From: Symbiotaphrina buchneri
Lineage: Eukaryota; Ascomycota; Symbiotaphrinales; Symbiotaphrinaceae
Assembly (NCBI GenBank): GCA_001599915.1
Contig: BCIG01000001.1
Coordinates: 930,001 to 994,000 of the forward strand
Direction of reading: 5' to 3'
DNA length: 64,000 bases
The notes under the pieces are model-generated. The model did no database searches and had not been told where the DNA came from. It saw nothing but the letters and a program-made list of their open reading frames with translations. Both the position numbers and the translations under genes were made by a program. This document shows positions 42,544 to 44,985 of the stretch, piece by piece. Position 1 is the first letter of the stretch. The number at the start of each line of letters is the position of its first letter.

Positions 42544-44084
42544 CTAGCAGACGGCGTGCGTCTTCCCGTGCTTGCCCTGAAGAGAATGTTTCTCATCCTT
42601 GTAGTGGGAATGAGCGTGCTTGCTCCGACGAGACCTGGGCCCAAAGTTCTTGATATTCCTAGTAATGTCAATTAGCCCAGCACATACAGCAATAAAGCCC
42701 ATCGTATACTCACTCGAGGTGTTTCGTCAAGTAATCAGGGTCCATCTTGTCGAGAGTCTCCATCACAAGCTTGATATCTGCCACACTGTATCCCACAAAT
42801 CAGATTAGTGAAAACCTCGGCGGAAGATTACAGAACATACAGCTGGTCGCAGCGACTCTTGCTGAAGTCCTCCCTCACAACAACACGCATCATCTTGAGC
42901 TTATCGACGTGAGGAGCCATAGTGTAGGCTGGGACGATCCAGCCACGTTCACGAAGATGATGCGCAATAGCAAACTCGTCAAACTTGGCCTGCTTCTTCG
43001 GATCCAATCTGAAAGCAACAAGCGGCAGACCCTTTCCGCTCTTTTTCGACATGATGATGAAACCCATGTTTTCAAGTGCAGCAGACAGGTAATCAGCGGT
43101 GCGGGTCAAATTCCTGAATAGCTGTTAGGAGCGATAACAGGGGCAAAACCCAATGGAAGGCTCTCACATCATGATCGAGCGATATCCACGCTTTCCAAGA
43201 CGAATCATCTGGTAGTACTGGCCAATAACTTGGGAGGCTCCCTTTGAGAAGTTCAAAGTGAATGACGCTTGATCAGCACCCAAGTAGTTGATGTTGAACA
43301 CGAGCTCCTTGGGAAGATATTCGGGAGAACGCCAGACGACCCAGCCAACACCGGGATACACCTATAAAGATACAATTAGAATGGTCACTCGCAGACATGT
43401 TCAGATACTGCAAGGAAAGAATTGCAGGCAAGCTACAAGGGTGTTATATTCTGACTTACCAAGCCATACTTATGCCCGCTGGTGTTGATACTGACAACCC
43501 TCTCCAAACGGAAGTCCCACTCCAAGCCGGGGTTGACAAAGGGAGCCACGAAACCACCACTAGCAGCGTCGACATGGATGGGGGTATCCATATTCTTCTT
43601 TATGAGGATATCGTTCATGGCTTTGACGTCCTCGTACTCGCCAGTGTAAGTGGTGCCCAGGATGGCGCAGATGCCGATTGTATTCTCGTCCACAAGGTTG
43701 ACAGCTTCCTCTGGATCGATGACATATCGGCCGGGCTCACAGTAGACGTAACGCTCCTCAACCTCGAAGTACCTCGCAGCTTTCTTTACCTGGCTTAGCT
43801 TGGGATCCTATGCGCTCATCGATTGTACTTACCTCCCAGCAGACTTGTACGGCGGAGTTCATAACAATATTTGGCTTGTCCCATGGCTTACCCTCTGCCT
43901 TCCGCTTGTTCTGCCAGCGCTTCTTCATCGCCAGAGTGCCCAACATGATGGCCTCGGAGCTGCCGACAGTGCTTGTGCCCAAAGCTTGAGGGCTATCCTT
44001 ATCAGTGGGAATATTGAAGAGGCGCCCAATCATAGAGACACATCGATTTTGGATATCTGCCGTCACAGGGTATTCTTCGTAGTC

Positions 44085-44617
44085 AGGAATAGTTATGTTC
44101 GAATCATAATGACCCGATATTAAGTGTAATATATCCTATATCAGGTCTTTTGATGCTTAAAGATAGAGTTCATCCTGATTTTTGGAAGATAATAAAAGAT
44201 GTATTAAAGTTAAATTCAAGGGCATCTACTGCTCATCTTCATTATTCTGAAATACGTTCAGTTATAAATCAGGCAGACTTTATACAGCTAATGATACTAA
44301 TATTTCCTATTGATATAAACCACACTGCTAAACACGTAGAATCTCCATTTATAGAGTTAGGGCAAATATGTACAGTTATTTATTTTGCTCATTTTTTTAC
44401 ATATTTTACCTATTAAACTACATAGGGGTGCAATTCCTCTACCCGCACCGATAAAATCTAATTACTTTATTAAGGCTATAGCTTAATTGGTAAAGCAAGC
44501 TGCTCATGATAGCTCAGATGAGTGTTCGATTCATTCTGGCCTTTGTTTCTGCTAGTTCGAATAAAAGTATATTCGGTTATTTAGGTATGGTGTATGCTAT
44601 GATGTCTATCCGTGTAC
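44085..44617 (+). other. NUMT: mosaic nuclear insertion of mitochondrial DNA
   Basis: A very AT-rich block inside a GC-balanced gene. Pieces seen on the plus strand: a tRNA T-arm (TTATG-TTCGAAT-CATAA, 44093-44109); an AT-rich stretch from about 44120, perhaps a mitochondrial intron; the end of cytochrome b (KHVESPFIELGQICTVIYFA, about 44315-44395); a likely second tRNA 3' end near 44422-44448; a complete tRNA-Met (44472-44543); and a cox1 fragment ([13 protein letters not shown], 44572-44610). These are not neighbours within one mitochondrial gene, so several pieces were probably joined at one break, as known for NUMTs formed during end joining. The host codons on both sides are directly adjacent in homologues, so nothing was lost. 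Confidence 0.9.
44472..44543 (+). tRNA. Mitochondrial tRNA-Met(CAU) copy inside the NUMT
   Basis: Folds completely: acceptor AAGGCTA/TGGCCTT (7 bp), D stem GCTT/AAGC, anticodon stem AGCTG/TAGCT with loop CTCATGA (anticodon CAT), T stem GAGTG/CATTC with loop TTCGATT. No mismatch beyond G-T pairs, which suggests a young copy. It has no nuclear role that can be inferred. Confidence 0.88.
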
Positions 44618-44985
44618 AATGAAATTTTTCGGAAGGCAGTCGTGCATAAGCTTCTCTGCCTCATCCTCCATGTATGTGGTGACGAAAGACGCAAGGTTGA
44701 GCGAGGCATTGCCATCGAGTTCCAAGTCGTCTCTGATAATACAAGTCAATTGCCTGTCAGACAATGGGTCCACTCGGGGCAGACCTACTTGATCATGCGG
44801 TATGCCGTATCCTTTGGCATCTCGTCATCAGGCATCTCGACTTTAGGGAGCTCCTGGGCGGCAAATCTGGAGCCATAGACGGTGGAGCTGAACTCCTCTT
44901 CGGGAATTTCCAGACTGAGCCCCTTGAGCTCAGGCACCAGCGGGCCGGTCTCATGGTCCTGCTGGACCGTCGAAAGATTCACCAT

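Follow-up and report, generated by a model that had tools for sequence, protein, structure and literature searches.

Short pieces of mitochondrial DNA that become lodged in nuclear chromosomes (numts) are a known type of DNA-repair scar. For Saccharomyces cerevisiae, a preprint (PMC10802722) describes short mitochondrial fragments that are end-joined at chromosome breaks; it counts about 33,000 insertions, of which nearly 4,000 consist of two to four pieces. For humans, exonic numts in GLI3, MCOLN1 and USH1C are listed in a review (PMC2820518), and neo-introns of mitochondrial origin in Daphnia are cited in PMC4202315.

The insert described here, which lies in a glutamate decarboxylase (GAD) gene of a filamentous ascomycete, is a natural example of this scar type. 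As in the yeast complex numts, short mitochondrial fragments were inserted, there singly or joined in twos to fours by end-joining. The yeast insertions were induced in the laboratory at an HO cut and measure 22–492 bp, whereas the present insert is natural, is 533 bp long, occupies a coding exon and sits at a break that we infer (PMC10802722). As in human GLI3, MCOLN1 and USH1C, mitochondrial DNA lies in an exon and disrupts the gene, although the human cases are disease alleles of 36–93 bp and the 533 bp here hold parts of several mitochondrial genes (PMC2820518). Like the Daphnia neo-introns, the insert places mitochondrial DNA within a coding region but, unlike them, it has neither a good donor nor an acceptor at its edge and is known from DNA alone (PMC4202315). 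The insert appears to resemble the yeast break-repair and human exonic numts in fragment size and make-up. It is probably a recent mosaic (complex) numt captured at a chromosome break, and the GAD allele probably null. The locus shows, in a filamentous fungus, a natural and apparently recent insertion of mixed mitochondrial DNA into a coding exon with all flanking codons kept. With the remainder of the gene undamaged and a second GAD-like gene present, it is well suited to asking whether a genome purges such scars, tolerates them as nulls or converts them into introns.

Position of the insert in the glutamate decarboxylase gene

The window, a stretch of 64,000 nucleotides (C1:930001–994000) from an assembly of 23.4 Mb in 82 contigs, carries the GAD gene on its minus strand, from a start at 44985 to a stop at 42544 in seven exons. 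Three stretches of the locus were matched to PF00282 in a family search. With the hand-joined GAD protein (476 residues) as the query, the 120 homologues listed showed 74–79% identity over 93–100% of the query, and the matches in the PDB were plant and bacterial GADs. GAD and RasGEF searches together with a 22-row tree put the source of the DNA within Pezizomycotina, with no close relative receiving support. The gene and the insert are laid out as follows.

44789..44985, minus strand: GAD exon 1, start codon at 44985
44618..44732, minus strand: GAD exon 2, portion ahead of the insert, ending ...KNFI (homologue alignment and gene model)
44085..44617, no strand assigned: mitochondrial insert, 533 bp, at Ile104/Asp105 of GAD exon 2 (homologue alignment, GC and gene content)
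43833..44084, minus strand: GAD exon 2, portion past the insert, starting DYEEYP (homologue alignment and gene model)
43460..43783, minus strand: GAD exon 3 (gene model)
43168..43361, minus strand: GAD exon 4 (gene model)
42841..43113, minus strand: GAD exon 5 (gene model)
42714..42785, minus strand: GAD exon 6 (gene model)
42544..42658, minus strand: GAD exon 7, with the conserved C-terminal tail and the stop (gene model)

On the coding (minus) strand, the junctions read ...AAAAATTTCATT / insert / GACTACGAAGAA..., and their coordinates are exact. In all ten aligned homologues, which were picked from the 120 listed, KNFI and DYEEYP are directly adjacent and the insert is absent, confirming the proposal of an earlier note on this DNA that the insertion falls exactly at the codon boundary between Ile104 and Asp105. 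None of the flanking codons was lost at either edge. The two halves of exon 2 that flank the insert share one frame and one orientation, so the DNA on either side is nuclear. GC content is 32.5% over the 533 bp; the 500-bp bin filled by the insert stands at 33.2%, compared to 47–53% in the surrounding bins and 44.8–63.4% in the window's other bins. Because a length of 533 bp is not divisible by 3, the frame is broken, as had been claimed, and after Ile104 it reads Val-His-Gly-stop.

Mitochondrial content and origin of the insert

Three mitochondrial features were recognized within the insert, next to a left part that is open in one frame under the mitochondrial code.

44085..44329, plus strand: left part of the insert, 245 bp, frame open from 44132 under the mitochondrial code
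44330..44398, plus strand: C-terminal piece of cytochrome b (cob), residues 342–364 of the best match (E 0.00058)
44472..44544, plus strand: complete tRNA-Met, anticodon CAT (CAU) (ARAGORN; Rfam RF00005, 52.9 bits)
44545..44616, plus strand: mid-cox1 piece, residues 261–284 of the best match (E 6.6e-5)

All five protein matches listed for the cob piece were cytochrome b, and the cox1 piece had 27 sequences listed at E values of up to 10, nearly all of them haem-copper oxidases (one, at E 0.93, was unrelated). Neither peptide hit a Pfam family, even at E 10. This content and the GC value bear out the AT-rich mitochondrial origin put forward earlier. For 318 of the 533 bp (44085–44329, 245 bp, and 44399–44471, 73 bp), the viral-contig scan and the protein search found no source; the protein search with the left part, in which eligible proteins were only those of about 220–700 residues, considered 30 candidates, of which not one reached E 10. 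A DNA search of the assembly found no other place that shares a stretch with the insert.

The cob piece, the whole tRNA-Met and the mid-cox1 piece all fall on the same strand within 287 bp, an arrangement that is hard to square with ordinary mitochondrial gene order and from which the insert apparently consists of several joined mitochondrial fragments instead of one clean segment. The earlier picture of a clean capture at a double-strand break can be kept as regards the capture of mitochondrial DNA, while the single clean piece probably needs changing, and the break is taken from precedent. A chromosome break would have arisen in GAD exon 2, and end-joining would have closed it, with several short pieces of mitochondrial DNA ligated in between the ends. 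The mitochondrial genome of the species, against which a mosaic could be proved and the insert dated, was not found in the assembly: searching for the COX1 family yielded a single weak match below the cut-off, and searching for COX3 yielded two.

The 533 bp might instead be a single contiguous piece, taken up in one capture from a mitochondrial genome whose gene order is unusual or in which fragments of genes are duplicated, as would suit the shared strand of the cob, tRNA and cox1 pieces. We consider this unlikely, as the mid-gene cox1 piece, which extends to the insert edge, directly abuts a complete tRNA, the cob match ends about 20 residues before the C-terminal end of cob, and, elsewhere in the genome, one shared piece has differing neighbours between blocks. 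A misassembly, or a minor allele in a mixed or heterokaryotic culture, would have to produce two separate junctions within one exon and is very unlikely: the insert is free of Ns, its pieces are mixed and only tens of bases long, and both gene halves are in place on a 1.3-Mb contig, even though two other mitochondrial-looking blocks (L016 and L049) contain Ns, a long run in the former. A viral or transposon insert was rejected given the cob, tRNA and cox1 content; the viral-contig scan returned three pattern matches and no relative.

Splicing and the state of the gene

Of greatest interest is whether splicing ever acts on the block. Only one in-frame GT-AG solution keeps every GAD residue, pairing a GTACAC donor at the 5′ edge with a TATAG acceptor 51 nt inside the insert; the edge itself has no in-frame acceptor, in line with what the earlier note had stated. 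Such splicing would take out 482 nt and add 17 residues to the protein between Ile104 and Asp105. When the insert was shuffled 2,000 times by dinucleotide, 898 of the shuffles also offered some in-frame solution, and in 257 the donor fell exactly on the edge; the in-frame acceptor is therefore no better than chance. Donors of the GTRNG type occurred in 126 of the 2,000 shuffles and are absent from the real insert ahead of its first in-frame stop. The donors of the six native GAD introns are GTAGGT, GTAAGT, GTAAGT, GTGAGA, GTATGT and GTGAGT. By eye, no convincing branch point was seen in the insert.

A newborn intron, in which the weak GT-AG pair that came with the mitochondrial DNA is spliced and a GAD with 17 mitochondrial-derived residues may still work, would catch organelle DNA becoming intron and exon simultaneously, in a genome that carries several young insertions of this kind. 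The single solution that retains all GAD residues, the undamaged exons, two other numt-like blocks that seem intronic and a Daphnia neo-intron resembling mitochondrial DNA, reported in PMC4202315, are all compatible with it; the shuffle frequencies, a GTACAC donor unlike those of the six native introns and the want of a convincing branch point make it very unlikely. Enlargement of a native intron by the insert, as seems to be so at the two other blocks, was rejected, as the GAD edges show neither a remnant of a native intron nor an acceptor.

Joined without 44085–44617, the GAD exons give an open frame of 513 residues that includes the conserved C-terminal tail. At the 269 positions that are invariant in the other ten sequences, GAD deviates five times, and each homologue deviates one to eight times (of 265–272 positions); the other exons are thus as undamaged as had been described. 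This undecayed state would fit an insertion that happened recently, or an allele that has remained functional. With the insert read as a mosaic numt, the interrupted GAD is most likely a null allele, which would yield no more than a stump of 107 residues that lacks the catalytic part.

The earlier note went on to call this a knock-out of the GABA-producing enzyme, and suggested looking for a second decarboxylase gene. Such a GAD-like gene was found on contig C35, where a family search placed PF00282 at 120742–121606. A tblastn search with one relative aligned five pieces, corresponding to residues 29–105 and 113–487 of the relative at 32–57% identity, and no break was seen within the aligned pieces. 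A probable null allele hence agrees with the earlier claim, while loss of the enzyme is too strong a statement: judged from its sequence, the putative second gene may compensate, and GABA synthesis need not be lost. The C35 gene (L013 / L006, C35:120.0–123.1 kb) is of another subtype, with KNLSDSDEYP compared to KNFIDYEEYP.

Other mitochondrial-looking blocks in the assembly

Seven further AT-rich, mitochondrial-looking blocks were found by family and DNA searches. As the searches were not exhaustive, seven is the number found so far and not a genome-wide count.

Contig C9: L016, a cob match of 46 bits, which exceeds the Pfam cut-off, and a tRNA
Contig C17: L017, a family hit below the cut-off; mainly shared AT-rich pieces and presumed rRNA labels
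Contig C4: L018, a family hit below the cut-off; mainly shared AT-rich pieces and presumed rRNA labels
Contig C2: L022, mainly shared AT-rich pieces and presumed rRNA labels
Contig C15: L024, mitochondrial-looking block at L024:1250–1541 (C15:90.0–90.3 kb)
Contig C13: L048, PF00361 match over the cut-off
Contig C3: L049, PF00361 match over the cut-off

Pieces of L017, L018 and L022 are presumably rRNA (Rfam reported none in L017 and L018), and a piece of L024 is one that we take to be cox1. Two other loci, L002 and L019, had weak hits to the COX1 and COX3 families but were set aside, the surrounding sequence being of ordinary GC. Within C1:1–200000, no mitochondrial block was recognized by eye in the 9 AT-rich stretches inspected, out of 17 listed. 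Single Ns are scattered through L016 and L049:1552–1890, and L016:1452–2361 holds a long N run; these might reflect mixing of nuclear and mitochondrial reads during assembly.

Several blocks have pieces in common: L018 and L022 share a stretch identical over 74/74 bp, L017 and L018 share 58 bp at 95%, and identity is complete over 41/41 bp between L017 and L022 and over 39/39 bp between L016 and L024. The neighbours of such pieces differ from block to block. Uptake of mixed mitochondrial scraps thus seems to have happened repeatedly in this genome, and some copies appear undiverged. One short piece common to L017 (L017:1683), L018 and L022 starts in L017 at another junction than in both others.

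Two blocks could be placed relative to genes. L022:1238–1712 (C2:512.4–512.9 kb) separates the SH3-WW part of a Cdc25-like RasGEF from its DUF7783-DUF7784 part. In 13 of 13 aligned homologues, chosen from 120 listed, a gap stands opposite the residues that separate the block from a TTCCAG acceptor, and the block is for this reason most simply read as intronic. The GT of the apparent intron is at the block edge. The block in L024 is flanked by two transporter reading frames, one matching MFS_1 just over the cut-off and the other TRI12 below it, and apparently lies in an intron of an MFS-type transporter whose splice sites were read by eye. Both blocks may sit where little harm results, against which the exonic GAD insert stands out. 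By eye, one piece is present twice in L022, in opposite orientations.
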